From: a virus
IMG/VR virus record: IMGVR_UViG_3300025030_000254
Location: 1 to 38,881 of that record
Length of the DNA: 38,881 nucleotides
Direction: 5' to 3' (one strand)
Of the stretch, positions 16,033-30,752 are shown one piece after another (position 1 is the first letter of the stretch; the number at the start of each line of letters is the position of its first letter). The notes under the pieces are model-generated. The model saw only the letters and a program-made list of their open reading frames with translations. It was not told the DNA's origin and did no database searches. The translations under genes and the position numbers were made by a program.

Positions 16033-17275
16033 TTAACCCTCTTGGCTTAACTATACTCTCCCGATACAATGGTTGCAACTTATATACTGCTAAGGCGTGA
16101 GAGATAACAATGTCATCAAAGTACTCCTCTCCCTGCGGTGCTCCATAATGTACTTTACCAGTCTCTCCTATCTTGTAAGTAAAGTACTCAAATTCTTTCT
16201 GTGTTTGTTCTAATGGTAACATACGTATCCTCTTTTGTTCAATCCAAATACTTAACTTTTCAATTAACTCTTTCTTGGTAGTTTCAGTTATTTTAAATGG
16301 CTCTACAGGAACACCATCTCTTAGGAGATCATCACAGATCGGATCTCCAATTCCAGTCGCATCAATAACACACAATGCTTTATTGTAGTGCTCTGATAAC
16401 GCTTTGATTTTTTTCTTTTGAAAACCCCATTCCAAACTTCTAAATCTATCCTGATAGACCTGGGTATTAATGGCAGTATCGTAAACGGTCAAAACCGTAA
16501 AGTCCCTCAATTTAGCCAAGTCAGCCCCAATTATATATAAATGATTATCCTTAGGTTCATGCGGCGTAGAAGTCATAATCTCTTTGACACCCCTAAAAAC
16601 ACTCCCTTCCCCCTCCAACCAAGCACATTCCCATTCCTGTTGGTAAAAGTTTTCACTCATTGATTTTCTAGCTTCTTCCAATTCATTAGCAGGTATTACT
16701 CCTGACTCCGAAGCCCTCATAATGGAACTTTTCCATTCTGGATTATCACCACCGCCTCTAAGGAAAAACTTGTATAGATGATTCTTACCACGAGGTGTAC
16801 CAATAAACCAACCCCAACCATCGTTGGCCCTGAGTATTGGTTCCACCACTTGCCAGGCTTCAAATTTCATAGTGGCAAACTCATCCATAATTACCCCTTT
16901 ACAATCAGCTCCACGCAAAGTGTCCGGATCATCTGCCCCTTTAAGCTGTATGTAGGATCCATTATGGAAGTAGCAAACTAGTTCCTGCTCATTTTTCTTT
17001 TTAATAAGCTCTGGGGGAATTATCCTAAACAACATATTAGGATCACGCCATACCGCATCCTTAGCTTCGGAGTACGTAGGAAAAATGTGCCAATAGGCTC
17101 CAACTCGGTACTGGCTTTGTTTTATGAGTTCCGTCACAGCCGTAGTGGTTTTTCTGGCACGCCGATGCCACACTAAAACTTTGAACCGCTGAGGAGACTG
17201 AAGTACGGCTCTTTGATGTGGATACATTTCCTCCCAATTCGGAAAAGGGATTGTCTGTCGTTGTTGTGTTTCCAA
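15944..17275 (-). CDS. terL: Terminase large subunit
   Basis: The 443-residue protein has both terminase domains. The ATPase has a Walker A variant WHRRARKTT (36-44, Lys42), Walker B GVIMDEF (Asp131, Glu132) and a coupling FIGTPRG (158-164). The RNase H-like nuclease has IIGADLAKLRDFT (Asp252), CVIDATG (Asp305) and EYFDDIV (Asp387/388). It drives DNA into the prohead through the portal and cuts concatemers. The start is TTG at 17275, seven bases after a perfect TATAAT, without a Shine-Dalgarno site, so a leaderless mRNA is likely. In-frame ATG at residue 17 is an alternative but would cost part of the adenine-binding region. Confidence 0.95.
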   Translation of the reverse strand: METQQRQTIPFPNWEEMYPHQRAVLQSPQRFKVLVWHRRARKTTTAVTELIKQSQYRVGAYWHIFPTYSEAKDAVWRDPNMLFRIIPPELIKKKNEQELVCYFHNGSYIQLKGADDPDTLRGADCKGVIMDEFATMKFEAWQVVEPILRANDGWGWFIGTPRGKNHLYKFFLRGGGDNPEWKSSIMRASESGVIPANELEEARKSMSENFYQQEWECAWLEGEGSVFRGVKEIMTSTPHEPKDNHLYIIGADLAKLRDFTVLTVYDTAINTQVYQDRFRSLEWGFQKKKIKALSEHYNKALCVIDATGIGDPICDDLLRDGVPVEPFKITETTKKELIEKLSIWIEQKRIRMLPLEQTQKEFEYFTYKIGETGKVHYGAPQGEEYFDDIVISHALAVYKLQPLYRESIVKPRGLIGKHYDRLKASQYEDTVEAREWQEWSDFN

Positions 17276-17282
17276 TAACTAG

Positions 17283-17312
17283 ATTATACCCATAATCAAG
17301 TTACTATTGCAA
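17283..17312 (-). promoter_or_regulatory. Promoter of the terminase and virion operon
   Basis: TTGCAA (17312-17307), an 18-base spacer and a perfect TATAAT (17288-17283) lie on the minus strand. The predicted start point falls on or within two bases of the TTG start codon of terL. The GC-rich pentamer array ends just upstream of the -35. Confidence 0.7.
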
Positions 17313-17313
17313 C

Positions 17314-17393
17314 CTAGCCTAGCCTTGCCTTGCCTCGCCTGGCCTTGCCTTGCCTCGCCTGGCCCTGCCTCGCCCTGCCATGCCACGAATAGA
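17314..17393 (-). repeat. GC-rich degenerate pentamer array A
   Basis: On the minus strand the array reads as about 14 tandem units of the form GGCNN (GGCAA, GGCGA, GGCCA, GGCTA). It opens with ATTCGTGGCA right behind the stop of the upstream gene and runs up to the terL promoter. GC content is far above the surroundings. GG tracts recur every five bases, which permits two-quartet G-quadruplexes on this strand. A second copy lies at 17951-18028. Confidence 0.85.
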
Positions 17394-17398
17394 TCTAC

Positions 17399-17938
17399 TT
17401 AGACTTTCTTGGTTTTAAGTATTTCCTTTAATTGAGTCAACTCTTCGAGAGTAAACTCAGCTGCATCTAACGCCCGCTTTCCTGCCATAGCCGCATACTG
17501 AGTAGCAACTCCAGCCCGATCTACTTTCTGGTTAAGAACATTGGCAATCTCCTGGTTGTGCATCAAGAAGTTACTTAGAGTAGTTTTTTGGTCAGGAGTC
17601 AATACAGCAGTGTCAATATGAGTCGCTATAAAGGTAGATTGTTTAATCTGTCGCTTTGACCTTGTTTTATGAGCATCTGCTCCTTTATACATTTCTACCC
17701 CTTCCACTATTCTGTACCCTTCGTTTGGCGCTACTTCTAACATCCTGTTTTTCTTGACCATTAGTTCTTTGTTAGCCCGATAGATGTAATGTCGACTGTT
17801 ATCAACTTCCTTGCCAATGGCTTCTCCAATCTCCTCATAAGTAACCAAGTCTCCCAACTCTTTGTCAACAATATAATCATAGAGCATTTCCCAATACGCC
17901 TTTTCATTCTTTGGTTTGAACATTGTGTTTGTTGTCAT
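17399..17938 (-). CDS. Winged-helix-like DNA-binding protein
   Basis: The ATG at 17938, with GGAG and a five-base spacer, is preferred; a longer frame begins inside the repeat array. The 179-residue protein has an N-terminal winged-helix pattern: LVTYEEIGEAIG, a recognition helix with NSRHYIYRANKELM, then wing residues 'RMLEVAPNEGYRIVEG'. A basic linker (HKTRSKRQIKQ) and a helical C-terminal half follow. It lies between two pentamer arrays, next to terL. It may regulate the late promoter or take part in DNA packaging. The other small-terminase candidate is at 19650-20087, which I favour. Confidence 0.7.
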   Translation of the reverse strand: MTTNTMFKPKNEKAYWEMLYDYIVDKELGDLVTYEEIGEAIGKEVDNSRHYIYRANKELMVKKNRMLEVAPNEGYRIVEGVEMYKGADAHKTRSKRQIKQSTFIATHIDTAVLTPDQKTTLSNFLMHNQEIANVLNQKVDRAGVATQYAAMAGKRALDAAEFTLEELTQLKEILKTKKV

Positions 17939-17950
17939 AATTTCTCCATT

Positions 17951-18028
17951 TAACCTCGCCTTGCCTCGCCTTGCCATGCCACGCCCTGCCAGGCCCTGCC
18001 TCGCCTTGCCCGGCCAGGCCTTGCCACG
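17951..18028 (-). repeat. GC-rich degenerate pentamer array B
   Basis: This second array of about 14 GGCNN units has the same entry sequence as array A (ATTCGTGGCA on the minus strand) and again sits directly behind a stop codon. It ends 13 bases before the next start codon, GGAG lying in between, so it forms the intergenic spacer and 5' leader of the winged-helix gene. Confidence 0.85.
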
Positions 18029-18030
18029 AA

Positions 18031-18612
18031 TTACTCAAAGGTAACGACATTAAAGGTACCAAATATGCCAGGCTTTTTAGGCGCTGACGGCCTCCAATCA
18101 CCAATACCAGCCGATTCACCCGCCGAGACCAAAAGAGCTTTTATATCCTCTTTGGTTAAGTCGTCGTTCTTTGTCATAACTTCAAACTCCAATTCCCAGC
18201 CTATTGGCAGTTGGGTACGAGAACGGTCTACTCTACGGCCCGTAACAACAGCTCCGCACACATAAATCCAATCATTGGCTTTGATGTCTTCAAGAGTAAT
18301 TTCTTTTAATTTACCATCTATCTTACACTTAATTGGAGGTTCAAACGGGGAAATTATTAGAGTGGAGTTAACAATTCTGGACAATGCAACTTTCCCTTTT
18401 TTTTGTCCTTTAGAACCGTCGTAGATAGAAGCCTTGATATTAGCAGCCGGAATGACAACTTCACCCGCCTCGTTAACATAAGTGCCTTTAACCCACTCAT
18501 CAGTGTAAGACAATCCAAAAGTTTTTCTAGTAGGGACCTCACTGACTGTGGCAACGGTATACTTGTGGAGAAGAAGGGGTTGATTTCCTTTAATTTTAAC
18601 TCTGTACTGCAT
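18031..18612 (-). CDS. Phage protein with RAMP/Cas7-like sequence features
   Basis: The 193-residue protein begins with a strand and 'IKGNQPLLLHKY', has VVIPAANIKASIYDGSKG at about 52-69, and ends in a glycine-rich GIGDWRPSAPKKPGIFGTF. The 'IPAxxxKxxxxxGxK' and late Gly-rich loop are the features seen in RAMP-fold (Cas7-like) proteins. Phages carry a widespread family of this shape whose role is not settled. It is the first gene behind a strong operator-bearing promoter and has a good AAAGGAGGTG site. Nucleic-acid binding is my best guess; no CRISPR genes are nearby. Confidence 0.7.
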   Translation of the reverse strand: MQYRVKIKGNQPLLLHKYTVATVSEVPTRKTFGLSYTDEWVKGTYVNEAGEVVIPAANIKASIYDGSKGQKKGKVALSRIVNSTLIISPFEPPIKCKIDGKLKEITLEDIKANDWIYVCGAVVTGRRVDRSRTQLPIGWELEFEVMTKNDDLTKEDIKALLVSAGESAGIGDWRPSAPKKPGIFGTFNVVTFE

Positions 18613-18642
18613 CTATTTCTTCACCTCCTTTCGGATATAATA

Positions 18643-18668
18643 TTAGTATAATAGTATTATTATACTAA
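18643..18668. promoter_or_regulatory. 26-base palindromic operator
   Basis: TTAGTATAAT and ATTATACTAA are perfect 10-base arms around AGTATT. The palindrome covers the -10 box and probable start point of the promoter at 18659-18688, so a bound repressor would block RNA polymerase. Candidate repressors are the ribbon-helix-helix or other small DNA-binding proteins encoded just upstream. Confidence 0.75.
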
Positions 18669-18688
18669 TTTGTTAAGGGGGTTGTCAA
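18659..18688 (-). promoter_or_regulatory. Consensus sigma70-type promoter
   Basis: Perfect TTGACA (18688-18683) and perfect TATAAT (18664-18659) are 18 bases apart on the minus strand. It should transcribe the RAMP-like gene, the winged-helix gene and possibly the terminase genes. Confidence 0.85.
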
Positions 18689-18727
18689 GCGACATCCAAA
18701 ATCGTGCTTAAGTTTGTTTATTTGAAG

Positions 18728-18889
18728 CTAAAGTTTTTGTTTTGGTCTGTCCCATCCTTTTAAGTAACCCACCAATTCCTCAAACTCCTCTTGAGGAAGC
18801 TTTAGTTGATTCATCTTCCAAGGAGATATCAACCCTTCAGTGGTGACTGATTTCTTAGCTAATTCTACCAAGCGTATTTTATCCATCAT
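18728..18889 (-). CDS. Small acidic protein, 53 residues
   Basis: The ATG at 18889 overlaps the upstream stop (ATGA) and has AAAGGAGG two bases further upstream. The protein reads MMDKIRLVELAKKSVTTEGL, then SPWKMNQLKLPQEEFEELVG and a short tail. It is helical and soluble. A partner of the coupled ribbon-helix-helix protein is possible; no family is recognised. Confidence 0.7.
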   Translation of the reverse strand: MMDKIRLVELAKKSVTTEGLISPWKMNQLKLPQEEFEELVGYLKGWDRPKQKL

Positions 18890-19170
18890 TTACCTCCTTT
18901 AGGTGTATTCTTAACTTGTGAGTCTTTGGAGATAGGGTGGAAGCCTGTATCTTTCAATGTGTTTTCCACTTTCAAATCCTCCACCATCTCTGCACGTTTA
19001 ATTTCTATATCTTTATTGCTAGATATCTTACCCTCTACAATAGAATTTTTTATATTTGGGGAGATTAACTGCCTTATAATTTCAGAATAGCTGCAATACT
19101 TATTTATGGCTTGAGAGCGAATCCAATCGAACTGCTCTTCCTCTAAATTAATTAATAATCTGCGCTTCAT
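18886..19170 (-). CDS. Ribbon-helix-helix transcriptional regulator
   Basis: From the ATG at 19170 the protein has 94 residues. The first 40 fit the ribbon-helix-helix fold: strand RRLLINLEEE, helix QFDWIRSQAINKY and helix 'SYSEIIRQLI'. The remaining half is charged and probably flexible. An earlier in-frame start at 19188 would lie upstream of the -10 box and can be rejected. The mRNA should be leaderless. Two 13-base direct repeats over its promoter (19185-19214) are likely its own operators, so it is probably autoregulated. Confidence 0.78.
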   Translation of the reverse strand: MKRRLLINLEEEQFDWIRSQAINKYCSYSEIIRQLISPNIKNSIVEGKISSNKDIEIKRAEMVEDLKVENTLKDTGFHPISKDSQVKNTPKGGK

Positions 19171-19176
19171 AAGATA

Positions 19177-19205
19177 ACTATATATCAAGATATATTAGAT
19201 GTCAA
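19177..19205 (-). promoter_or_regulatory. Promoter with direct-repeat operators
   Basis: TTGACA (19205-19200), a 17-base spacer and TATAGT (19182-19177) precede the ATG at 19170 by six bases. The 13-mer TCAAGATATATTA occurs at 19185-19197 and again at 19202-19214, with a 17-base period. The first lies in an imperfect palindrome ATATATC-AA-GATATAT (19180-19195). Confidence 0.75.
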
Positions 19206-19256
19206 GATATATTATTATTCTGTGGATATTTTGGCTAAGTGTGCCCATATTGTATA

Positions 19257-19267
19257 GGGGTACCCCC
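19257..19267. promoter_or_regulatory. GGGGTACCCC palindrome
   Basis: A short perfect GC palindrome stands out in AT-rich spacer between two small regulator genes. A weak TTGTCC/TATACA promoter-like pair flanks it on the minus strand. It could be an operator; nothing else supports it. Confidence 0.35.
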
Positions 19268-19316
19268 TCGACTGGACAACCCATTCACTTTTACATTCAG
19301 AACGAAGCGATTAGAT

Positions 19317-19562
19317 TTAATCTTGATTGAGCTTAGAAGATAAGCGAAGTTTACGTCTATTCTTCCAGTCCATTCTACCTTTAGCTATGGCTAGGTGATA
19401 GGACTGTCTAACAGTACGTGTAAGCTTATCAGCGGCCAACCTACGTTGTATCTGCCTAACTGTTACATCTAGGTGTAAAGCATCCTTTATCTCTTGTGCA
19501 GACGCTCCTAACTGGTACATTAACTTAACTTGCTCATAATCCTTTAACCATAGTTTTATCAT
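19317..19562 (-). CDS. Small helix-turn-helix protein
   Basis: The 81-residue protein has a homeodomain-like helix-turn-helix: DYEQVKLMYQLGASAQEIKD, then VTVRQIQRRLAADKL as the recognition helix, and a basic tail (RMDWKNRRKLRLSS). It resembles resolvase/transposase-type HTH heads without a catalytic domain. Its ATG lies six bases after a perfect TATAAT, so the transcript is probably leaderless. It is likely a regulator of this control region. Confidence 0.75.
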   Translation of the reverse strand: MIKLWLKDYEQVKLMYQLGASAQEIKDALHLDVTVRQIQRRLAADKLTRTVRQSYHLAIAKGRMDWKNRRKLRLSSKLNQD

Positions 19563-19568
19563 AAATAG

Positions 19569-19597
19569 ATTATACGACTATAAACTAGCCTTGTCAA
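19569..19597 (-). promoter_or_regulatory. Consensus promoter with TATRCGAC repeats
   Basis: Perfect TTGACA (19597-19592), 17-base spacer and perfect TATAAT (19574-19569) end six bases before the ATG. The motif TAT(A/G)CGAC occurs at 19571, 19604 and 19633, spaced by 33 and 29 bases, about three helical turns, on the same face of the helix. These look like operator sites. Confidence 0.8.
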
Positions 19598-19649
19598 GAA
19601 CTATATACGACGTAACGTAGAACAATAACCATTATGCGACGTAGTGAAC

Positions 19650-20087
19650 CTAGCTAGGTTTAGTAGCCTTAGTAGGTATAGCCTTATGAGGCTGTGTAAG
19701 GGACTGAGGAGGGAGATAACCACCTGACATATCTAACTGCACTGTTACTGGTTGATTACCTTCGTTGATTTGCTTAGACGTTTCTACATAGCCATGATTA
19801 GCAGCTAATATGAACCGTGCCATGCTTGGGTCGTACTTACGTTTGATACCATTTTGTACTAACATTTGTTCTTGAACATATTTTAGATAATCTACTGCTT
19901 CCCTAAACTTATTATTACCTTGCGAATAGAACTCTATCTTCCTTACATTAATACTTAGCTTATAACATATCTCTTTTATGAAAGGTAGTTTGTCTATCTC
20001 TTGACACTCGTTAACATAAGTCTTTATTAACTCTGGCCATTCTTTACGATAAGAACTCGGTCTACCTAGCTTCTTTGGTCTTGCCAT
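19650..20087 (-). CDS. Probable terminase small subunit
   Basis: The 145-residue protein has a basic head (MARPKKLGRPSSYRKEW) and an HTH-like helix set (FIKEICYKLSINVRKIEFY). A helix with YVQEQMLVQNGI and the late motif MARFILAANHGYVET follow. The motif corresponds to the 'a.f.LknnfGw' ending of gp3-type phage terminase small subunits. These bind the packaging site and recruit TerL. The gene heads the leftward region that leads to terL, although five genes lie between. A leaderless promoter precedes it. An alternative is a general DNA-binding regulator. Confidence 0.7.
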   Translation of the reverse strand: MARPKKLGRPSSYRKEWPELIKTYVNECQEIDKLPFIKEICYKLSINVRKIEFYSQGNNKFREAVDYLKYVQEQMLVQNGIKRKYDPSMARFILAANHGYVETSKQINEGNQPVTVQLDMSGGYLPPQSLTQPHKAIPTKATKPS

Positions 20088-20093
20088 GCTTCA

Positions 20094-20123
20094 ATTATAC
20101 TACTTTAAATCAAGTTATTTCAA
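20094..20123 (-). promoter_or_regulatory. Leaderless promoter of the small terminase gene
   Basis: TTGAAA (20123-20118), 18-base spacer and perfect TATAAT (20099-20094) end six bases before the ATG at 20087. Confidence 0.7.
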
Positions 20124-20206
20124 ATTAGCTTCAAGTAATATAAGAACTTGTATGAATAGTGTTGTTATATCAATCTATTTATATCTTTTTGAGGCTAGTA
20201 AAATAC

Positions 20207-20236
20207 TTGACATACTTATACAAGGGGTTGTATGAT
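20207..20236 (+). promoter_or_regulatory. Rightward promoter with inverted repeat
   Basis: TTGACA (20207-20212), an 18-base spacer and TATGAT (20231-20236) lie on the plus strand, divergent from the small-terminase promoter. ATACAA-GGGG-TTGTAT (20218-20233) is an inverted repeat across spacer and -10, a likely operator. It is the only clear rightward promoter in the window. Confidence 0.75.
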
Positions 20237-20242
20237 GTAATT

Positions 20243-20421
20243 GTACATTAAGTTAAAGACTAAGGTTCCTTGACTGGGTAGGATTAAATCAGCCCGTAAC
20301 TGACAAGCCTTAAATTAGGTAGAGTTGAATTAGACTCTTTAAATGTAATGCGGTCGGTCGCTAGGTTAGAAACCCAAGACGGTGTATAACGCCTTACGAA
20401 TAACATTATTCAATTAAAAAA
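20243..20421 (+). ncRNA. Candidate structured leader RNA
   Basis: About 180 bases without a gene follow the rightward promoter. CATTA and TTAAAGA (20246-20259) pair with TCTTTAA and TAATG (20336-20350), enclosing a domain. Inside, AAGG and CTTG (262-265, 269-272 of 20xxx) pair with the continuous CAAGCCTT (20304-20311). GGG/CCC (20276-20278, 20293-20295) and GAT/ATC with a TAA loop are nested within. AGAGT/ACTCT forms a side hairpin. A second part has GGTT-AGA-AACC (20364-20374) and GGTG-TATAA-CGCC (20381-20393). It could be a cis-regulator of the following zinc-ribbon gene or an independent RNA. The remaining spacer 20124-20206 shows nothing. Confidence 0.55.
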
Positions 20422-20541
20422 ATGATCTGCAAAAAATGTAAGAAAAAAACTCAGCGGTTGGATTTAGGTTGGGTAGCGAGGGTTTGCGAGAATCCTAATT
20501 GTATGTTAGAAGGGATACCTGTGTTTAGAATTAAATTGTAA
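20422..20541 (+). CDS. Tiny zinc-ribbon protein, 39 residues
   Basis: The protein has CKKC (residues 3-6) and CENPNC near 22-27, the two knuckles of a minimal zinc ribbon, with a basic KKKTQRL between. It is similar to the C2C2 ribbon of phage Com-like translational regulators in size and order. The start ATG has no Shine-Dalgarno site, and it follows the structured region. A role in binding its own leader RNA is attractive but unproven. Confidence 0.65.
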   Translation: MICKKCKKKTQRLDLGWVARVCENPNCMLEGIPVFRIKL

Positions 20542-20558
20542 GATTATTCTGGCTATAT

Positions 20559-20741
20559 ATGGATAAAGAAACAGAAAAGTGGCTTAAACATAATCATATA
20601 TCTAAAAGGAAAGAACTCACAATCAAAGAAGCAGGAAGTTTAGGTGGTAAGGCTACCTTAAAGAAACACGGCAAAGAATACTTTAAAGAATTAATTAGGA
20701 GACGCTGGGGTAAAAAGAAAATCAACGCCTCAAAGAAATAA
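20559..20741 (+). CDS. KGG-like small basic protein
   Basis: The 60-residue protein contains AGSLGGKATLKKHGKEYFKE, matching the GGxATxxKHGxxxF pattern of KGG/GsiB-like stress repeats, and ends in a basic RRRWGKKK. The first 20 bases of the gene are identical to those of the gene at 26828-27157 (both encode MDKETEK). The stop overlaps the convergent transketolase gene by 20 bases. Function in phages is not known. Confidence 0.72.
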   Translation: MDKETEKWLKHNHISKRKELTIKEAGSLGGKATLKKHGKEYFKELIRRRWGKKKINASKK

Positions 20742-21198
20742 AATCCGGATGATTGCTTTCTACCATATGGGCAACATGTGTCTTTATTTCATTTTCCTTA
20801 TTAGGCCAATATGTGTGTATATTTGGTAACGTATCCAATATACATTTTGCATCTTCTGACCAATGGCTAATACCATCATGTGCATAATCTTTATCTCTAC
20901 CATTCGCTACCAATTTTACCGGTATTTTTTCATGGTTGATATATGTGCGTAGTGTTTCAAATGGCCTGTATATCAAAAATGGTGTAATACTATATACAAA
21001 AGTTATTTTACCTTCTAAAGCTAAACCTACTGCAATATCCAAACCTGCTTGCTCGGCTGCACCAGGGTTTAAATATCTATTTGGAAAATAATCCCTAATT
21101 TCATCAAACGCACCATAGCCTAGATCAAAACAAATACACCATATATTTTTGTTTGCTTTCATTTGATTATACAGTGCACTTACAAATTCTTTTCTCAT
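20722..21198 (-). CDS. Transketolase-like C-terminal subunit, short form
   Basis: The 158-residue protein is the pyrimidine-binding domain of a split transketolase. GAAEQAGLDIAVGLA (46-60) carries the glutamate (Glu49) that activates thiamine diphosphate. ITPFLIYRPFETLR (71-84) and HDGISHWSEDA (107-117) are also family marks. Usual C-terminal subunits are about 310 residues; the third domain is missing here and the gene ends in FISLRR. It overlaps the N-terminal subunit gene by 4 bases. Together they should move two-carbon units between sugar phosphates. In this operon the useful product would be sedoheptulose-7-phosphate, or another ketose for the glycan. Confidence 0.82.
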   Translation of the reverse strand: MRKEFVSALYNQMKANKNIWCICFDLGYGAFDEIRDYFPNRYLNPGAAEQAGLDIAVGLALEGKITFVYSITPFLIYRPFETLRTYINHEKIPVKLVANGRDKDYAHDGISHWSEDAKCILDTLPNIHTYWPNKENEIKTHVAHMVESNHPDFISLRR

Positions 21199-21830
21199 TG
21201 TAGTTTCTCCATAATTAATTTATATTCTTTCTCATTCATCACTTTATAGTGGGCTTCTTGAGGTTCTTTAAGAATAGGCATAAGTAAATTGAAATTAGTT
21301 TCTCTAACATTTATATAATCAATATGGTTTACAATCCACCGTGTGAACTTATCCGGTTGTTTGTAGGCAGACCAATTATTCCAATTAATATATACTTTTA
21401 GATTTTTTAATGACAATCCATTTTGTATTCTTAACGCTTCCCAAACGCTACCTTCCGCACACTCCCCATCAGACATTAAACAGTAAACATTTTTATTAGG
21501 TCGTGCAAATGCCATCCCAAGAGCAATCCCAATCCCATGACCAAGACTCCCAGTAGAGCAATCAAGACTACATAAACTACACCTATCAGGATGCACTCCA
21601 TGATGTCTAAAAATATCTTCAGCATTTCTACCTCCATATTTTTCTAATACTACATATAATGCTAACCCTGCATGACCTGAGCTAAGTATAAACTTTTCGT
21701 TTGGTTTCTTAATTTTAAATATGTCATCAATAATATCTACCGAAGTCAAACAAGATCCTAAATGAGATAGTTTATTTCTGTATGAAATATCAATTATTCG
21801 TCTTTTTAAGTCTTTGTTCAATATGTCCAT
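21195..21830 (-). CDS. Transketolase-like N-terminal subunit
   Basis: The 211-residue protein is the diphosphate-binding domain. LSHLGSCL (21-28), SSGHAGLALY (50-59), CSTGSLGHGIGIALGMA (91-107) and the metal/TPP motif SDGECAEGSVWEA (120-132) with Asn151/152 are in place. About 60 residues of the usual 270 are lacking at the C-terminal side. The start at 21830 overlaps the SDR gene by 41 bases. It works with the short C-terminal subunit. Split transketolases of this kind are frequent in bacterial surface-polysaccharide clusters. Confidence 0.86.
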   Translation of the reverse strand: MDILNKDLKRRIIDISYRNKLSHLGSCLTSVDIIDDIFKIKKPNEKFILSSGHAGLALYVVLEKYGGRNAEDIFRHHGVHPDRCSLCSLDCSTGSLGHGIGIALGMAFARPNKNVYCLMSDGECAEGSVWEALRIQNGLSLKNLKVYINWNNWSAYKQPDKFTRWIVNHIDYINVRETNFNLLMPILKEPQEAHYKVMNEKEYKLIMEKLQ

Positions 21831-22590
21831 AAGTCTTTCTTAAACCTTCTTGAATGTTTGTTTTAGCATAGTTAAAGAAAGGTATTTCATAACTACGCTT
21901 AGTGCCTTTTTTAACTATAACCTTTCTGCCTGCTATAGCTTGCAATCTTCTGGCAATCTCTCTATTCCATCGTCTTTTGCCTGTGCCAATACCAATTGAT
22001 TGTCCTTTTAATTTAGCAGATTCTTTCAAAGCGACTAATAACCCATCTATAAAATCATCTACATATATCCAATCATGGCTAACATCAGTTACAGTAATGG
22101 ATTTACCTTCTGATATTCTCTTACTAATTGAAGGGATGAATCTAAACTCTTTTTCTTTTTCACCATAAACAGAGTATGGTCTGATATTTATAACAGGCAA
22201 ATCATACTTTCTCACAAAAGACCTAACTAAATACTCACCACTAGATTTAGTTGACCCATAAAATGTATTTGATTCGAGATTATGTTTCGTGGTAGAAATG
22301 TTAGCAAACCCTTTATATGGTAGGTATCTAGTAGCCCACAATAAATTGAAAGTACCAACTACGTTAGCTTTAAATGTTTTGTACTCAGATAACTGGAAGT
22401 AGTGATTCCCGTAGGCGGCTAGATGGATAACATATTCAGGATTTATTTTAGTAATATATTTTCTTAAACTTTTAGGTTTATCTAATTTATTTCTTTTTAG
22501 TCTGGTAACCTTATGCCCTAATTGTTCCAAACGAGCTACCAAGTGAGAACCGATGAAGCCATGACTTCCTGTAATTAAATACTGTGCCAA
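21790..22590 (-). CDS. NAD(P)-dependent sugar-nucleotide SDR in the heptose operon
   Basis: The 266-residue extended SDR has GSHGFIG (8-14), IHLAAYG (55-61), Ser/Thr at 99-101 and the YxxxK pair Tyr111/Lys115, then NIRPYSVYG. It starts at TTG (22590), eight bases after GGGAGG. Given kinase and nucleotidyltransferase genes for heptose, it could be a GDP-heptose dehydratase, epimerase or reductase, making a modified or 6-deoxy heptose. The substrate is inferred only from the neighbours. Confidence 0.82.
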   Translation of the reverse strand: MAQYLITGSHGFIGSHLVARLEQLGHKVTRLKRNKLDKPKSLRKYITKINPEYVIHLAAYGNHYFQLSEYKTFKANVVGTFNLLWATRYLPYKGFANISTTKHNLESNTFYGSTKSSGEYLVRSFVRKYDLPVINIRPYSVYGEKEKEFRFIPSISKRISEGKSITVTDVSHDWIYVDDFIDGLLVALKESAKLKGQSIGIGTGKRRWNREIARRLQAIAGRKVIVKKGTKRSYEIPFFNYAKTNIQEGLRKTYGHIEQRLKKTNN

Positions 22591-22783
22591 GATTATTGCC
22601 TCCCTTCTTTATATATATTGGTTCACTGCAATGATCACAAACTACCGTAAAAGAATCACCTATTATTCTGGTGATGCCATTATGAAACCGGAGAACTAAA
22701 AAATGTCCTTGATTATCTATTTCACCTAATACATTTATCTTACCTTCCGTTTCACATGAAGGACACCTAATTAAGTTTTTCAT
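22511..22783 (-). CDS. Zinc-ribbon protein in the heptose operon
   Basis: The 90-residue protein has CPSC at 8-11 and CDHC at 49-52, a four-cysteine zinc ribbon with a beta-hairpin between (HFLVLRFHNGITRIIG). It overlaps both neighbours, by 17 and 80 bases, so some C-terminal residues are dual-coded with the SDR start. Similar zinc-ribbon proteins are common in phage operons; no function is known. Confidence 0.65.
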   Translation of the reverse strand: MKNLIRCPSCETEGKINVLGEIDNQGHFLVLRFHNGITRIIGDSFTVVCDHCSEPIYIKKGGNNLGTVFNYRKSWLHRFSLGSSFGTIRA

Positions 22784-23432
22784 AGAATATCTGAGCCCTT
22801 CTTAATCCTTTAGGTGTACCTATATCCCAGTATAGTTCGTCTTGGAAAGATAAAGTTACTGAAGGCGGCACCTTATTTAATGCTTTAAAAAGATCATTAA
22901 TCATAAAAGGCACATCATCTGGAATGTAATTTAATACTGATTTACTAAATATATAAGTACCGCCATTATCAAACTCATCTTGGTGAGTAAAAACAGTTGC
23001 CTTTGAGTTCATCAACTCATGTCCTTTCAATAACTTAGCTATATTAATATTACTAACAGTATCACCATTACAAACAATGAAAGGATCAGATAACCAAGTA
23101 CTAATTCTTTTTAAAGCCCCTGCTGTACCCATATCTATCTTTTGTATATCATAGCTTATTCTTTTCTCAATCAAAGGTAATATCTTTTCGGGTTTATACA
23201 GTAAAGAAGCACAAATTATCTTAATACCATTATTATTTAAGTTATCAATTATATAATTAATGACAGGTTTACCTGCTACTTCTAGTATTACTTTCGGGTT
23301 TTGATCTGTTAAAGGTAGGAGCCTTTTACCCCTCCCCCCTGCTAATATAACTGCCCTGATGTCTTTTGTATTTAATTGGTAGTATTGAGGATTTTGGTTT
23401 CTAACCCGTTCCAACATATTGAAAAGTCCCAT
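22767..23432 (-). CDS. hddC: Nucleotidyltransferase, probable heptose-1-phosphate guanylyltransferase
   Basis: The 221-residue protein has the nucleotidyltransferase signature AVILAGGRGKRLLPLT (27-42) with Lys47. CNGDT at 121-125 and WDIGTP at 202-207 follow. The size and place after a GHMP kinase and GmhA fit HddC of the GDP-D-glycero-D-manno-heptose pathway rather than a larger glucose enzyme. Residues 1-26 overlap the kinase gene by 61 bases; a shorter start is possible. Guanylyl versus other nucleotide specificity is inferred from operon context. Confidence 0.78.
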   Translation of the reverse strand: MGLFNMLERVRNQNPQYYQLNTKDIRAVILAGGRGKRLLPLTDQNPKVILEVAGKPVINYIIDNLNNNGIKIICASLLYKPEKILPLIEKRISYDIQKIDMGTAGALKRISTWLSDPFIVCNGDTVSNINIAKLLKGHELMNSKATVFTHQDEFDNGGTYIFSKSVLNYIPDDVPFMINDLFKALNKVPPSVTLSFQDELYWDIGTPKGLRRAQIFYEKLN

Positions 23433-24367
23433 TGAGTTAGCCCCTCGTTGTTCATTTTAGTTATAAATTCTTCTTTATGATTTGGTTTAACTATATATAT
23501 CATAAAACCACCACCGCCAGCACCACACAACTTACCACCTAAAGCACCATTCTTTTTTGCTTTCTCATATAGACTATTTATCCATGGTTCACTTACTCCT
23601 TTATTTGATCTTTGTTTGACCCGCCATGATCTATCTAATAAATGGCCCACTTTTTCAATATCACCTTGACCAATAGGTTCCATGCTTTTTATAGCTATCT
23701 GCTTTATCTCATTAAGTCTCTGTATTTGTTCAGGTTTTAATGTTCGTAATCCTTCTTGTATCTTAGGATTTACTCTATTCTTGCCAATATATAAAAGCAC
23801 TAGGGAAGGAAATATTTTATCTATAAAATTAGTACCTAAAGGCGTTACATTCACAGACTCTTTATTAAATTCAAATACATTAACACCACCATAGGTAGAT
23901 GCATATTGATCTTGTCTACCTCCAAATAGACCAATCTTATTTACTTCTATATGCCAAGCCTGTTCAGCAATCTCACCCTTATCCATACTTAATCCTAAAG
24001 ATTTACGAATGGCTCCCACTGTAGCCACAGCTCCTGCTGCTGATGCTCCCATACCAGATTCTAAGGGCAGATCAGAAATACTATCAAATCTAACGTGGTG
24101 CATATTACCCATCTTCACAAACCTACTGTTATCTTTACTTGCATTAAATTCATCAAATATTTTGTGCATGAAATTAATATCACCACTCGGAGGAATATTA
24201 TTTAAGCTTTTCTTAACTACATCTTTTTCAGTATAGATAGTAATATGTTGCCTTAAATTGATAGCCAAACTAACTACTAACCCACCAAAACCCATAAAGT
24301 AGCTATCCATATCAGTTCCACCTCCGAATAAACTTATCCGTGTTGGGGCATGAGATTCAACTATCAT
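23372..24367 (-). CDS. hddA: GHMP kinase, probable D-glycero-D-manno-heptose-7-phosphate kinase
   Basis: The 331-residue length fits HddA (about 340). RISLFGGGTD (10-19) opens the substrate region, LPLESGMGASAAGA (100-113) is the ATP loop, GRQDQYA is at 150-156, and KLCGAGGGGF (279-288) is motif 3. HddA adds phosphate to C1 of D-glycero-D-manno-heptose 7-phosphate. The gene overlaps gmhA by 4 bases. Related GHMP kinases act on fucose or other sugars, but the GmhA neighbour supports heptose. Confidence 0.85.
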   Translation of the reverse strand: MIVESHAPTRISLFGGGTDMDSYFMGFGGLVVSLAINLRQHITIYTEKDVVKKSLNNIPPSGDINFMHKIFDEFNASKDNSRFVKMGNMHHVRFDSISDLPLESGMGASAAGAVATVGAIRKSLGLSMDKGEIAEQAWHIEVNKIGLFGGRQDQYASTYGGVNVFEFNKESVNVTPLGTNFIDKIFPSLVLLYIGKNRVNPKIQEGLRTLKPEQIQRLNEIKQIAIKSMEPIGQGDIEKVGHLLDRSWRVKQRSNKGVSEPWINSLYEKAKKNGALGGKLCGAGGGGFMIYIVKPNHKEEFITKMNNEGLTQWDFSICWNGLETKILNTTN

Positions 24368-24807
24368 TCAAACTCCTTTTCTACTTCTTCAACTACATCG
24401 TGCATAAGTTTTAATTGATAATTTTGTATATCACCAACGTCTTTTCCCTTCCTAGGCCACTCCAACACTTGAACACCTTTAGATTTAGCTACTTGAATTG
24501 CATAATTCACATTAGATGATTTACCGCTAGTAGATAAGGTAATTAAAAGATCACCTTTATTAGCTAATGCAGATAGAGGACGAGAAAAAACAAATTTGAA
24601 TCCAAAATCATTACCAATAGCGGTAATTAAACCAGGATCATTCAAAGCAATAGCAGGTAATGATCTTCTTTCTTTCTTATATTTACCTAGAAATTCATTA
24701 GCAAAATGTGAGGCTTGAGTAGAACTGCCTCCATTACCACAGATAAAAACTTTATTGCCTTTTTTAAATACTTCAACTATGTTACGAGCTATAGTTTTGA
24801 CAGCCAT
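24364..24807 (-). CDS. gmhA: Sedoheptulose-7-phosphate isomerase
   Basis: The 147-residue SIS-domain protein carries the GmhA hallmarks: CGNGGSSTQASHFANEF (23-39, with His34 and catalytic-type Glu38), LPAIALNDPGLITAIGNDFG, STSGKSSNV (92-100), and the late His136 expected for the metal site. The E. coli enzyme has 192 residues; here about 35 are lost from the N-terminal helix region and a few from the end. It turns sedoheptulose-7-phosphate into D-glycero-D-manno-heptose 7-phosphate. It starts the carbohydrate operon, downstream of a terminator. Confidence 0.88.
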   Translation of the reverse strand: MAVKTIARNIVEVFKKGNKVFICGNGGSSTQASHFANEFLGKYKKERRSLPAIALNDPGLITAIGNDFGFKFVFSRPLSALANKGDLLITLSTSGKSSNVNYAIQVAKSKGVQVLEWPRKGKDVGDIQNYQLKLMHDVVEEVEKEFE

Positions 24808-26357: not shown

Positions 26358-26394
26358 GGGTATATTATACCCCTCTTGTTAAATTACTTGTCAA
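26358..26394 (-). promoter_or_regulatory. Lysozyme promoter with palindrome over the -10
   Basis: TTGACA (26394-26389), a 19-base spacer and TATAAT (26369-26364) are followed by the leader. GGGTATA-T-TATACCC (26358-26372) is a perfect palindrome centred on the -10 and a likely operator. Confidence 0.68.
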
Positions 26395-26440
26395 GTTTAT
26401 CCTTTTCCTTGAGGTAGTCTATAATTTTATTTATCTTGGG

Positions 26441-26656: not shown

Positions 26657-26663
26657 AATTTAT

Positions 26664-27157: not shown

Positions 27158-27178
27158 AATAATCTTAGGTTTGTACTT

Positions 27179-27321
27179 TAATATGCTGGGGGCAAGGATT
27201 TGTTAGCCTTAAGACGTCTCTCGGGCATATCTCACCTTGCAGCAGCCCTAGGAAGGGGACACGGGCTTACTCTCATTTCACCCCACGCAGCTTTACCCTA
27301 TTCAGCCACCCCAGCATATTA
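27179..27321 (-). ncRNA. Candidate structured RNA 1, closed by a perfect 13-base stem
   Basis: TAATATGCTGGGG at the 5' end (minus 27321-27309) pairs perfectly with CCCCAGCATATTA at the 3' end (27191-27179). The enclosed 117 bases hold further pairings: GGGG/CCCC, GGGC/GCCC and CAAGG/CCTTG. No open frame covers it. The element ends 21 bases before the ATG at 27157, so it may be a 5' regulator or an independent RNA. It does not match tRNA, tmRNA, SRP or RNase P patterns that I know. Confidence 0.65.
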
Positions 27322-27355
27322 GATTGTTAACCTTCTATCCTTCGTCTTAATCACT

Positions 27356-27430
27356 TAGAAAGGGTTGGCGGGTGCTATCTTCTTGGGGTTGATAACGAAC
27401 AAATGGATGTTTGTAGACCAACCCTTTCTA
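27356..27430 (-). ncRNA. Candidate structured RNA 2, three-way junction
   Basis: TAGAAAGGGTTGG (minus 27430-27418) pairs perfectly with CCAACCCTTTCTA (27368-27356) as a 13-base stem. Within the 49-base interior, ACAAA/TTTGT and TTATC/GATAG form two hairpins, giving a compact three-way junction of 75 bases. It lies 35 bases upstream of RNA 1 in the same direction and behind a membrane-protein gene. Confidence 0.65.
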
Positions 27431-27453
27431 GGTAGATCCCTCTCACTTTCCGC

Positions 27454-27657
27454 CTATTTAATCTCCTCTTTAGTTTCGTAAAGAAGCGAACAGCTTACCT
27501 TATTTTTTATACACACGTTCACTTCTTCTTTTGTATCTCTCGGTACTGGCATGAGTACGTAGTTTTTGTTAAACCACACTCCGCCATAGGTAATTATTCC
27601 CAGTAACAGAACAATTACGCCTAAAAGTACGATCTCTCTAACTTTTGGCAGGTTCAT
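27454..27657 (-). CDS. Single-span membrane protein
   Basis: Residues 9-28 (IVLLGVIVLLLGIITYGGVW) form a membrane helix, followed by a 38-residue outer part with two cysteines (NVCIKNKVSCSLL), perhaps disulphide-bonded. The two folded RNAs follow its stop. Unknown; a lysis or exclusion role is possible. Confidence 0.62.
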   Translation of the reverse strand: MNLPKVREIVLLGVIVLLLGIITYGGVWFNKNYVLMPVPRDTKEEVNVCIKNKVSCSLLYETKEEIK

Positions 27658-27674
27658 TTTTTATCACGCTCCCT

Positions 27675-28373
27675 TCAATTTATTTCTTCTAACTCTTTTA
27701 CTCTGTTTTTAAACCACTTTTCAATATCGTTCAAAAATGCTGACTCTGCTGCTGACCATGCTGCTGACCTTGCTGCTGACTCTGCTGACCATGCTACTGA
27801 CCTTGCTGCTGACCATGCTACTGACCTTGCTGCTGACCATGCTGCTGACTCTGCTGACCATGCTGCTGACCATGCTACTGACTCTGCTGACCATGCTGCT
27901 GACCATGCTACTGACCTTGCTGCTGACTCTGCTGACCATGCTGCTGACCTTACTGCATCTCGGTTCTTCTTGGTGTCTTTGAATAGAACCTTCTTGGCTG
28001 CTTCTATAGCTTCTCTTGGTCTTTTATCGTTTGGAAACTCTTTCTCAAAGTTAGATAGTACTTTCTCGGCGGCATAGATAGCTAGAGACAAACTGTCTTT
28101 CCTAGTCCACTTCCAAGCCTTGACTATCTTCATGCTTTCGTTACAGGTTTTATCTTCATCGTCTAATTTCTTTCCTTTAGTTTCTACCTCTGCAAGAACT
28201 TCTCCTTGAATATAAGAAGAGGCATAATACATGGTTGGTGAGCAATGATAACCTGTTTCGCAAAGTTTAAGTTCGCCTTCCCAAGTTTTCCATTCACCTA
28301 TCGTCCACTTTTCGTTTCCGTTTTCAGAAACTATGTTTTTACCTTGTAATCTTAAAAACTTAAATTGTTTCAT
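27675..28373 (-). CDS. Phage protein with Ala-Trp-Ser repeat helix
   Basis: The 232-residue protein has a folded N-terminal half: FKFLRLQGKNIVSENGNEKW, then ELKLCETGYHCSPTMYYASS. The C-x(5)-H/C pattern is that of a widespread phage domain with unknown function. From about residue 142 to 213 it consists of SAAW, SAAR, SVAW and SAE units, giving a long Ala-rich amphipathic helix with Trp every seventh or eighth residue. The ATG overlaps the upstream stop (ATGA). The repeat DNA is listed separately. Repeat number probably varies among relatives. Confidence 0.75.
   Translation of the reverse strand: MKQFKFLRLQGKNIVSENGNEKWTIGEWKTWEGELKLCETGYHCSPTMYYASSYIQGEVLAEVETKGKKLDDEDKTCNESMKIVKAWKWTRKDSLSLAIYAAEKVLSNFEKEFPNDKRPREAIEAAKKVLFKDTKKNRDAVRSAAWSAESAARSVAWSAAWSAESVAWSAAWSAESAAWSAARSVAWSAARSVAWSAESAARSAAWSAAESAFLNDIEKWFKNRVKELEEIN
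27740..27955 (-). repeat. Coding minisatellite (Ala-Trp-Ser repeat)
   Basis: Short blocks such as GCTGCTGACCATGCTGCTGACC recur on the plus strand with 9-12 base units over about 215 bases. The minus-strand reading gives SAAW/SAE/SVAW units. Because units are multiples of three, slippage changes length without breaking the frame. Confidence 0.9.
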
Positions 28374-28492
28374 GTAAGTAAAATATAAATAGTAGTCAGT
28401 ATCGGTATTCCCAGGATTATTCCTAACATTAGGTAGTGGTTGTCTTTTGGGTTAGGGTTAAATTTTATATTGCTTTCGTGTTTGTAGTTCAT
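28370..28492 (-). CDS. Small membrane peptide, 40 residues
   Basis: The start overlaps the upstream stop as TGATG and the stop overlaps the next ATG. After a polar head (MNYKHESNIKFNPNPKDN) comes one membrane helix (YLMLGIILGIPILTTIYILL). These overlaps argue for a real gene. Unknown function. Confidence 0.65.
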   Translation of the reverse strand: MNYKHESNIKFNPNPKDNHYLMLGIILGIPILTTIYILLT

Positions 28493-28623
28493 CAGCATTT
28501 ACCTCCAACTGTATCGCTAGGTATAGTAACTTGACAGGTTGTATTCTTGCCCAGCTCATTAAACAAGGCTAAGACTCCTAAGATTAGTAATATTGTCGTG
28601 ACAATGGCAACTTTATTTTTCAT
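28492..28623 (-). CDS. Small secreted or membrane-anchored peptide, 43 residues
   Basis: Residues 5-21 are hydrophobic (VAIVTTILLILGVLALF). The outer part has two cysteines (TTCQVTIPSD, then GGKC). It could be an anchored peptide or a small lipoprotein-like spanin, but there is no clear lipobox. It overlaps the genes on both sides. Confidence 0.62.
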   Translation of the reverse strand: MKNKVAIVTTILLILGVLALFNELGKNTTCQVTIPSDTVGGKC

Positions 28624-29095
28624 TCTCTAGTATCTCCCTGTAGACTTTCCTTTTTTCTTCTTTCCAATCCTTATAGAAATCATCGTTTAAGTGGAAGAAG
28701 TCCAGCCATTGCCATAGGTTACCTGTCTCAACCGCCTGCATTGGACTCATGCCCTCTGATCTATAATCTGAGGAGATAATACTTAAACTCTTGTTGTATT
28801 CCTTGTACGCCCACTCACGGCGTTTGGGAGGGCGATATTCGTCTTCCTCAGCAGATTCTACTTTATCCAACTTTTTCTGGGCCTCATGCTTTTGTTTATT
28901 AGTATAATCCCCCTCCTCCAATTCTTCTTCAAATAATTCATCAACAGAATCAACTTCATCAGTAGCTGGAGCCGTTTCTTTGCAAGAGAAATTAGGACAA
29001 CCATAAAAAGCATTGTATCTTTTACCTGTCTTTTTACTAACACCAGAAGGAATTAACTTCATTGGCAGATCATGTACTTCACATTTAACAGTCAT
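28613..29095 (-). CDS. Zinc-finger protein (topoisomerase-type C4 ribbon) with acidic tail
   Basis: The start at 29095 has GGGAG seven bases upstream and is preferred over 29134, which overlaps the preceding gene. The 160-residue protein begins VKCEVHDLPMKLIPSG and continues to NAFYGCPNFSCKE, the Cx(n)Gx(F/Y)xGCxxxxxC ribbon of topoisomerase zinc fingers. A highly acidic linker and a helical C-terminal domain follow. It may bind single-stranded DNA or a partner enzyme. Confidence 0.7.
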   Translation of the reverse strand: MTVKCEVHDLPMKLIPSGVSKKTGKRYNAFYGCPNFSCKETAPATDEVDSVDELFEEELEEGDYTNKQKHEAQKKLDKVESAEEDEYRPPKRREWAYKEYNKSLSIISSDYRSEGMSPMQAVETGNLWQWLDFFHLNDDFYKDWKEEKRKVYREILENEK

Positions 29096-29096
29096 A

Positions 29097-29363
29097 CTAT
29101 TTCTCCCATATTGTATTAACTTGTGCTTTAGCATACTCTATGCCGTCAGCATAGCCTTGTTTATAATCCTTTCTGTTAACACTATCTTTACCGTATTGGA
29201 ATCCTTCGGTGAAAGCCTCAGTCATTAACATCTTAGTGGGATTATCTATTCCATTAAAAGTGTCTCTTAGCTTATGATCCATAATTTTGGTGTGGAAATC
29301 AAAGATTCTATCCACAGGCTTTTGGCTAACATGAAAAGCGTAATCTTCAGTTGTATCTATCAT
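29097..29363 (-). CDS. Small protein, 88 residues
   Basis: The protein (YAFHVSQKPVDRIFDFHTKI, then EGFQYGKDSVNRKDYKQGYA) contains repeated YxxGxxDG-like helical stretches as in small phage proteins. It overlaps the upstream gene by 17 bases. No function assigned. Confidence 0.65.
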   Translation of the reverse strand: MIDTTEDYAFHVSQKPVDRIFDFHTKIMDHKLRDTFNGIDNPTKMLMTEAFTEGFQYGKDSVNRKDYKQGYADGIEYAKAQVNTIWEK

Positions 29364-29532
29364 TTAATGCTTCCACCCTTCCTTCACCCCAATCTTTTAA
29401 AAAAGCATTATACCGATTTAATAGAATTGATATAGCTTGCAATCCTTCAATAGTGTCAATCTTGTCTTCATTCATGTGTCTATTTAATATCGCTATTGCT
29501 TCTATATACTTGTGTCCGTTATCATTAATCAT
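29347..29532 (-). CDS. Small helical protein, 61 residues
   Basis: The protein is a pair of helices (KYIEAIAILNRHMNED, then DTIEGLQAISILLNRYNAFL). It overlaps the genes on both sides. No family is recognised. Confidence 0.6.
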   Translation of the reverse strand: MINDNGHKYIEAIAILNRHMNEDKIDTIEGLQAISILLNRYNAFLKDWGEGRVEALNDRYN

Positions 29533-29650
29533 TTTCAGCGTCCTTTAACCCCACACAATAAGAACAGTCGCAATCGTGGTCGATCTGCACATTGATTTTG
29601 CAGTTGTCGCAGTAAGGGCCTTCGTTTTCGTCTTCTTGGGTTGTTGGCAT
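29525..29650 (-). CDS. Tiny cysteine-rich protein, 41 residues
   Basis: The protein has CDNC and CDCSYC in an acidic context (MPTTQEDENEGPYCDNCKIN), a likely zinc knuckle pair. Its stop overlaps the next gene by 8 bases. An open frame of 60 codons in another frame covers the same bases but has low-complexity Thr/Lys composition, so I prefer this one. No clear ribosome site. Confidence 0.58.
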   Translation of the reverse strand: MPTTQEDENEGPYCDNCKINVQIDHDCDCSYCVGLKDAEND

Positions 29651-29763
29651 ATAGCTAGAGCAGTTATTAGTGGGAACTTTCCCTGTTGTGATCCCGATCC
29701 CCTCCAGCTATCTGACAAAAACGCCACCGGTGTCTAACCTTCCTTGAGTACCCTATCACATAG

Positions 29764-29922
29764 TTACTTTTTTGTCAATACCCCAATTTTAATATATTTG
29801 GAAATCGTCTGGCGTGATATATCTACATCAGGGCGTTTACTAATTACCTTTAACTTAATACCGAGATCAAGAAAAGATTGAATCTTGGAAACCATATCAG
29901 GGGTCATTTTTAGATAGGCCAT
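29764..29922 (-). CDS. Small helix-turn-helix regulator, leaderless
   Basis: The 52-residue protein has helices MTPDMVSKIQSFLDLGIKLK and 'RPDVDISRQTISKYIKIG', the second with a recognition-helix pattern (SRQTISKYI). Its ATG lies five bases after a perfect TATAAT, so the mRNA should be leaderless. A perfect palindrome over that -10 box is its likely own operator. Probably an autoregulated repressor. Confidence 0.75.
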   Translation of the reverse strand: MAYLKMTPDMVSKIQSFLDLGIKLKVISKRPDVDISRQTISKYIKIGVLTKK

Positions 29923-29923
29923 A

Positions 29924-29957
29924 GCATATTATATGCACAGGGTTACATATTTGTCAA
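29924..29957 (-). promoter_or_regulatory. Consensus promoter with GCATAT palindrome
   Basis: TTGACA (29957-29952), 18-base spacer and TATAAT (29933-29928). GCATAT-T-ATATGC (29924-29936) is a perfect palindrome centred on the -10 box. Confidence 0.8.
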
Positions 29958-29958
29958 G

Positions 29959-30324
29959 TCAAACGAACAGGGTTTTTTGTCCTTCGATATTTTTGTTTTT
30001 CTTCTGAGTAAGGTCGCCTTTAAAATCAACATAATACCAGTAAAGCCAGAAGGGGTTGTCTTTCCACAAACCTACCTGCTTCTGGCGTTTTCCTAAAGCC
30101 TTCCACCTGATAGGGTTTTCATTTAAGATGATACTAGGAAACTCTGGGAACACAACTTCTAAGTGTTTACCCTTGCTAATTACATAATCAATTATCTTTT
30201 CCCTGATTCCAAACTTAAATTTAAACCCACGTTCCGGCATAGTTTTATAGATTCGGAATCGGTAATGATCTGCGATTGGTAGTAGAGGTTGATTGCCAAT
30301 TTTAATTATCGTGTTAGACAACAT
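29959..30324 (-). CDS. Basic protein of unknown function
   Basis: The frame encodes up to 121 residues, basic and aromatic (YRFRIYKTMPERGFKFKFGI, then PFWLYWYYVDFKGDL). The start is uncertain: a TTGACA (30332-30327) and GATAAT (30310-30305) with 16-base spacer overlie the first codons. Either the ATG at 30324 serves the longer transcript from 30420, or a later codon is used. No family is recognised; a nucleic-acid-binding or small-enzyme role is possible. Confidence 0.65.
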   Translation of the reverse strand: MLSNTIIKIGNQPLLPIADHYRFRIYKTMPERGFKFKFGIREKIIDYVISKGKHLEVVFPEFPSIILNENPIRWKALGKRQKQVGLWKDNPFWLYWYYVDFKGDLTQKKNKNIEGQKTLFV

Positions 30325-30407
30325 TTTGTCAAGTTCTTAACTTTTAAACAATTGGGAATCATATACTATAAACTTACTCTGCGGTGACATATAGTTAACT
30401 CTCATCC

Positions 30408-30448
30408 CTCTTATAAGAGATTGTATTGTTTGAAAAAACGGCTGTCAA
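30408..30448 (-). promoter_or_regulatory. Promoter followed by a 12-base palindrome
   Basis: TTGACA (30448-30443), 17-base spacer and TACAAT (30425-30420). CTCTTATAAGAG (30408-30419) directly follows, over the start point. The leader of about 85 bases contains a 22-codon frame (ATG at 30405) behind AGAGGG, which may be a leader peptide. Confidence 0.65.
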
Positions 30449-30473
30449 GATAGAATCGAAAATGAACATTTAG

Positions 30474-30737
30474 TTATAGTCGTTTGGTATAAAAAGGTAC
30501 GTTTACACTATCAAGTTTACGATGACAACCACCACAAAACCCAACATAGTTGTCTATATTTCTCTTGTGTTCCTTGCCCGATCTTAATGCCCACTCTATA
30601 TTCCAGCGTTTTACTTCTCTACCTTTCCACGTATGGGTACTATACGATCCTACTTTTCCACAGTCCTCACACTTAGAAGGATTCCCATAATGTCGTCTTA
30701 GCCATTGGTGTACTTTTTCGTACTGATAACCATTCAT
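30474..30737 (-). CDS. HNH-like endonuclease, small
   Basis: The ATG at 30737 is six bases behind an extended -10 (TGT-TATACT), which favours it over the earlier frame start at 30797. The 87-residue protein has CEDCG (23-27) and CGGCHRKLD (68-76) zinc knuckles around RWNIEWALRSG and NIDNYVGF, the shape of a phage HNH domain. The first His of the core is not obvious, so activity is uncertain. Such genes are often free-standing homing endonucleases or packaging nucleases. Confidence 0.75.
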   Translation of the reverse strand: MNGYQYEKVHQWLRRHYGNPSKCEDCGKVGSYSTHTWKGREVKRWNIEWALRSGKEHKRNIDNYVGFCGGCHRKLDSVNVPFYTKRL

Positions 30738-30743
30738 AAGGTA

Positions 30744-30752
30744 AGTATAACA
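30744..30752 (-). promoter_or_regulatory. Extended -10 of the HNH gene
   Basis: TGT-TATACT on the minus strand ends six bases before the ATG at 30737; the -35 is weak. It has the same spacing as the other leaderless promoters. Confidence 0.55.

Follow-up and report, generated by a model that had tools for sequence, protein, structure and literature searches.

Among bacteria, leaderless genes with a box ~12 bp upstream are widespread (PMC3160421, Zheng et al. 2011), and in Deinococcus-Thermus they form an important route of gene expression (PMC12340547, 2025); in the bacterial genes described as "TA-led," a TANNNT box lies ~10 to 12 bp upstream of the start codon (PMC3160421, PMC12340547). Phage transcripts have also been described as "often leaderless" (PMC5312081), and the middle and late promoters of Thermus phage P23-45 are of the extended -10 class (PMC7403470). 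Here we describe a set of candidate leaderless promoters in the virus record IMGVR_UViG_3300025030_000254, the whole 38,881 bases of which form the window of this analysis. The window is a tailed phage, with the terminase small subunit (TerS), terminase large subunit (TerL), portal, and major capsid protein recognized by family searches, and nearly all of its genes are carried on the minus strand. A second record, IMGVR_UViG_3300025312_000339, contains this phage as well. The classic leaderless phage mRNA is the lambda cI transcript from PRM, which starts at the A of AUG, and the window is alike in its predicted transcription starts; in lambda, however, a single repressor gene is leaderless, whereas here several operon heads would be, including both terminase genes. 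The middle and late mRNAs of P23-45 were reportedly found to be leaderless in a 2011 study.

The window resembles the TA-led bacterial genes in the position of the -10 box, the absence of a Shine-Dalgarno (SD) site, and the enrichment at single genes and operon heads. It differs in being a phage with consensus TATAAT and often perfect TTGACA, beside genes with strong SD sites, whereas those studies concern cellular genomes. P23-45 is related only distantly: of the terminase, portal, and capsid that would mark a P23-45-type phage, only TerL is similar, at 28% identity, and most window promoters also have -35 boxes, unlike the extended -10 class of P23-45. The window portal has no relative in any phage record by tblastn, the major capsid protein matches only that of Microbacterium phage Shocker (25%), and a megablast of window bases 15001-38881 against 50,697 phage records gave no match. 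The lineage is without representation in phage databases.

Promoter boxes adjacent to start codons

The first-pass annotation had named seven genes, starting at 17275, 19170, 19562, 20087, 29922, 30737, and 11017, in which a mostly perfect TATAAT-like box ends 5 to 9 bases before the start codon, with several perfect TTGACA boxes and no SD site. Base-by-base reading bears this out in 7/7 genes, with distances (the bases separating the last T of the -10 box from the start codon) of 7, 6, 6, 6, 5, 6, and 9 nucleotides (nt), respectively. Five of the seven boxes are perfect TATAAT, the other two being TATAGT (19170) and TATACT (30737). The gene starting at 31997 is a further member beyond those listed, and a box at 38750 is a possible weaker one. 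The promoters are as follows.

17276..17312, minus strand: TerL promoter, TTGCAA (17312-17307), 18 nt, TATAAT (17288-17283), CTAGTTA, then TTG at 17275; 7 nt
19171..19205, minus strand: 19170 promoter, TTGACA-17-TATAGT, 6 nt to ATG
19563..19597, minus strand: 19562 promoter, TTGACA-17-TATAAT, 6 nt to ATG; 12/12 consensus
20088..20123, minus strand: TerS promoter (20087), TTGAAA-18-TATAAT, 6 nt to ATG
29923..29957, minus strand: 29922 promoter, TTGACA-18-TATAAT, 5 nt to ATG
30738..30752, minus strand: 30737 extended -10 promoter, TGT-TATACT, 6 nt to ATG
11018..11035, minus strand: 11017 extended -10 promoter, TGG-TATAAT, 9 nt to ATG
31998..32013, minus strand: 31997 promoter, TGG-TATAAT, 7 nt to ATG
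38748..38762, minus strand: possible weaker member with a weak -35, TATAAT ending 6 nt before the internal ATG 38750

TTGACA is present at a spacing of 17 to 18 nt in three of the named genes (19170, 19562, and 29922), and 11017 and 30737 are without a recognizable -35 but have an extended -10 (TGn), as does 31997. At every one of the eight best sites, there is either a TGn motif extending the -10 or a -35 with at least 4/6 matches. In 31997 and each of the seven named genes, the 20 nt preceding the start codon match AAAGGAGGTGA over at most 2 to 4 nt, and SD sites are absent at all five window units having a full leaderless promoter (-35 plus -10). Transcription usually starts at the seventh base beyond the -10 box, and this base is an A at all eight best sites except 29922; it is the A of the ATG at the 6-nt sites and lies 1 to 3 bases upstream of the start at 17275, 31997, and 11017, with the TerL +1 likely being the A one base ahead of the TTG. 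The 38750 box sits inside the longest reading of its open reading frame (ORF), with AGGTG upstream of the longer GTG start.

The best reading is that these genes are transcribed without leaders, or with leaders of at most ~3 nt, to which we assign a probability of roughly 0.85. Ordinary sigma-70-type promoters would be read by the host RNA polymerase, transcription would begin on the start-codon A or 1 to 3 bases upstream, and ribosomes would bind the 5'-terminal start codon of the leaderless mRNA without SD pairing, the arrangement heading ~8 transcription units with both terminase genes among them. We infer the transcription starts from the spacing and ribosomal starts on a 5'-terminal codon from known leaderless genes (PMC3160421, PMC12340547), and the use of host RNA polymerase and 70S-type initiation have the same standing.

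Several points weigh against this reading. TerL starts with TTG, a codon that serves leaderless starts poorly in E. coli. The leaderless starts are placed by sequence, with start codons backed by orthologues only for TerS, TerL, and 11017 and the others being mechanical ORFs. The gene-proximal promoters could have little activity, most mRNA being supplied by read-through from units upstream, and the geometry itself accounts in part for the lack of an SD in a 6-nt discriminator.

Chance, spacing, and conservation in relatives

Gene starts were taken from a mechanical ORF caller choosing the longest frame, by which a few leaderless starts may have been missed or misplaced, an error likelier to lower a signal than to produce one. 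Perfect TATAAT at 5 to 9 nt is found in 6/65 window genes versus 0.55 expected, an approximately tenfold enrichment that was reached in 0/1000 dinucleotide-preserving shuffles; this is the comparison with shuffled sequence that the first-pass annotation had proposed as a check. Across the whole window and both strands, the bare pattern TATAAT-N5-9-ATG occurs 7 times versus 5.0 expected (six on the coding strand, comprising five at called ORF starts and 38750, and one on the noncoding strand), but this count is uninformative in AT-rich DNA and was dropped as a test of significance.

The same scan was applied to 81 related viral contigs with 1,236 genes, fetched via terminase and portal and including partial contigs, with near-duplicates dropped only where the upstream DNA was identical. 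Perfect TATAAT at 5 to 9 nt is found in 18/1,236 of these genes versus 5.3 expected (0/100 shuffles), and the distance profile has a single sharp peak at 6 nt, with 12 occurrences versus a mean of 1 to 2 beyond 10 nt. A peak at exactly 6 nt implies that the A of the ATG is the usual +1. Full promoters (-35 plus -10) give 16 at 6 nt versus ~2.4 per position elsewhere. P23-45 itself has only a small signal at 6 nt, and no exact box at 5 to 8 nt was found by the same procedure in lambda, TP901-1, phi11, or Tunturi_4.

These data bear on whether the boxes are simply TATA-like words that arose by chance where intergenic DNA is AT-rich, the real starts lying further upstream and translation being SD independent (e.g., S1 helped). 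The DNA is 38% GC and the bare pattern lacks enrichment window-wide, as this would predict, but chance words account neither for the enrichment at true gene starts nor for the one-spacing peak in 81 other contigs and the boxes kept in orthologues. AT-richness would not yield a single-position peak, and phi11 and TP901-1 are both AT-rich phages that show none. We therefore regard a chance origin as very improbable.

The boxes are kept in orthologues of TerS, TerL, and gene 11017. In L079, whose TerS protein is 57% identical, GTAGTATAATTGAA is identical and the 6-nt spacing is the same, although the upstream DNA has diverged. Upstream of TerL, TATAATCTAGTTA-TTG in the window corresponds to TAAAATCTACTTA-ATG in L006 and TATTCTTTAGTTA-TTG in L079, and the -10 and discriminator are recognizable in both, the L079 box itself having only 4/6 matches. 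Near-consensus boxes at 5 to 8 nt are present in 12/48 TerL orthologues versus 1.97 expected (0/300 shuffles) and in 3/9 TerS orthologues versus 0.39 expected, compared with 0/57 for the portal and 0/20 for the gene 9332 family. Many relatives have TerL without such a box, and several have an SD site instead; the arrangement is thus recurrent at particular genes and not obligatory. Gene 11017 is preceded by TATAATTAGTCCACA-ATG in the window, TATAATTAATCCACA-ATG in L086, and TATAATTGATCT-ATG in L021, and its N terminus, MADQRESSQN, is identical in L086 and MADQTESSQN in L021. The fetched relatives yielded no orthologues of 19170, 19562, 29922, or 31997, and the claim for these genes is therefore drawn from the window sequence; a pattern-based scan of viral contigs for TerS gave no hits.

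The orthologues also speak to where translation begins. True start codons might lie downstream with SD sites, the promoters then leading short 5' untranslated regions; mechanical ORF starts are sometimes too long, and a TerL ATG at codon 17 follows GGGAGGAA. However, TerS, TerL, and 11017 orthologues keep N-terminal residues from the predicted start onward, and a conserved TerL FPNW motif precedes the ATG at codon 17, such that downstream starts seem highly improbable. The leaderless reading is well supported at the sequence level by the spacing statistics, the relatives, and conservation. Leaderless starts are a known mode of protein synthesis, and here they appear to be a conserved habit of one phage lineage; leaderless promoters would precede essential packaging genes and not repressors only, and they offer a practical route to start-codon correction in such phages.

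Gene functions and the leadered promoters

The genes headed by these promoters, together with the portal and capsid genes, are as follows.

15944..17275, minus strand: TerL, TTG start (phrog_2 E 5e-36; Pfam Terminase_6N and Terminase_6C)
18886..19170, minus strand: small 94-aa protein, ribbon-helix-helix-like by eye, from ORF reading
19317..19562, minus strand: helix-turn-helix-like DNA-binding protein of 81 aa, a weak call (phrog_11420 "DNA binding protein" E 0.005)
19650..20087, minus strand: TerS, gp3 type (Pfam GP3_package E 2e-10; phrog_3064 terminase)
29764..29922, minus strand: 52-aa protein with no assigned function (ORF list, PHROG and Pfam searches)
30474..30737, minus strand: HNH-endonuclease-like protein, 87 aa (HNH endonucleases matched weakly in PHROGs, E 4e-4 to 2e-3)
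10622..11017, minus strand: structural-module protein of no known family, start backed by orthologue N termini
31401..31997, minus strand: M23 peptidase with LysM domain (Pfam PF01551 E 2e-15, PF01476 E 1e-8)
13326-15296: portal (family search)
7351-8595: major capsid (family search)

The set had been described as rich in DNA-binding proteins and terminase genes, which is fair, with TerL recognized by Pfam and PHROGs, TerS by Pfam, and 30737 showing weak HNH similarity. The DNA-binding calls are weak, that for 19562 being one PHROG match and the ribbon-helix-helix of 19170 a reading of the sequence; the 19170 product has no match in family or PDB searches, and the 19562 product has none in a PDB search.

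The further proposal, that the set is an early or regulatory class, fares less well. A distinct temporal class, with a regulator of the phage or the host as its switch, would fit the several small DNA-binding-like members, and a 12-bp direct repeat over the 19170 promoter is a candidate operator. However, the functions are mixed, and late expression is usual in phages for functions such as those of TerS, TerL, structural-module gene 11017, and the M23-LysM protein. Leadered strong promoters of the same consensus occur in the same regions (18612, 12046, and 9332), and no common motif beyond the -35 and -10 is seen in the set, as judged by eye. We consider such a class unlikely; what the leaderless genes have in common is their position at the heads of transcription units. 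Genes downstream in these units have SD sites or overlap the preceding stop codon, and the same modules contain other genes with leaders or with translational coupling.

The leadered promoters include those of 18612 (46-nt leader, with AAAGGAGGTGA), 12046 (80 nt, with SD), 9332 (122 nt), 30324 (95 nt), and 26221 (142 nt), and their presence beside the leaderless ones indicates that the phage uses both modes. Between the strong promoter at 12155-12127 and the start of gene 12046 there is an intrinsic-terminator-like hairpin with a T-run (12067-12085), and in L086 and L021 the equivalent position ahead of the 12046 orthologue also has a hairpin and T-run; the arrangement suggests attenuation or antitermination.

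We note several other features close to these promoters. The direct repeat at 19177-19220, read by eye, consists of two copies of AATATATCTTGA 17 nt apart and covers the -35 and spacer of the 19170 promoter; given the ribbon-helix-helix-like look of the 19170 product, autoregulation is plausible. A degenerate 5-base unit, CCTTG/CCTCG (read on the coding strand as GGCAA/GGCGA), is repeated in two arrays, at 17313-17384 and 17954-18028, that flank gene 17399-17977; one of them lies directly upstream of TerL, and a short similar stretch, GGGCAAGGCAAG, lies upstream of TerL in L063. Ahead of TerS, no clear gene lies on the minus strand over a long interval, 20088-20721; the plus strand there has a promoter-like TTGACA-18-TATGAT (20207-20236) and an ORF at 20559-20741. 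An Rfam scan gave no matches, including in this region.

Host leads and other loci

Profiles of the portal and capsid have no true match in 379 Patescibacteria genomes, the portal has no true match in GTDB genomes, and megablast and portal tblastn against phages indicate no host. The single GTDB portal match, in L087 (a Daviesbacteria contig), covers 15 residues of an apparently serine-recombinase-like ORF and was rejected. On the same contig, 67 residues (6638-6835) share 36% identity with window gene 33951-34745; an apparent tRNA-Leu and a serine-recombinase-like ORF are close by, and this region is perhaps a prophage remnant.

Three Patescibacteria genomes, G168 (L100-L105), G200 (L111-L114), and G209 (L130), have a strong -10 signal 5 to 8 nt before starts and few SD sites. 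Near-consensus -10 boxes at these four distances summed are present in 28/141 genes in G168 and 30/107 in G200, against a background of 5 to 7, and other Patescibacteria genomes have little such signal. This suggests that leaderless genes are widespread in some Patescibacteria genomes; with a sample of Patescibacteria only, it is a lead about that phylum and not evidence on the host of the phage. The leaderless promoters do point to a link with hosts relying heavily on leaderless mRNAs. That leaderless expression of packaging genes is selected and recurrent in the lineage, and tuned to a largely leaderless host, possibly within the Patescibacteria, is a tentative and rather doubtful extension.

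Elsewhere in the window, a sugar-metabolism-like gene cluster at 20722-24807 and 712-1614 includes a SIS-domain protein (24364-24807), a nucleotide-sugar epimerase (21790-22590), a second epimerase (712-1614), and families of unknown function, and possibly serves sugar-nucleotide synthesis for glycan or surface modification. Within ORF 27675-28373, the segment 27738-27956 is a 12/33-base tandem repeat of TGCTGACCATGC, with ~18 copies of the 12-mer.

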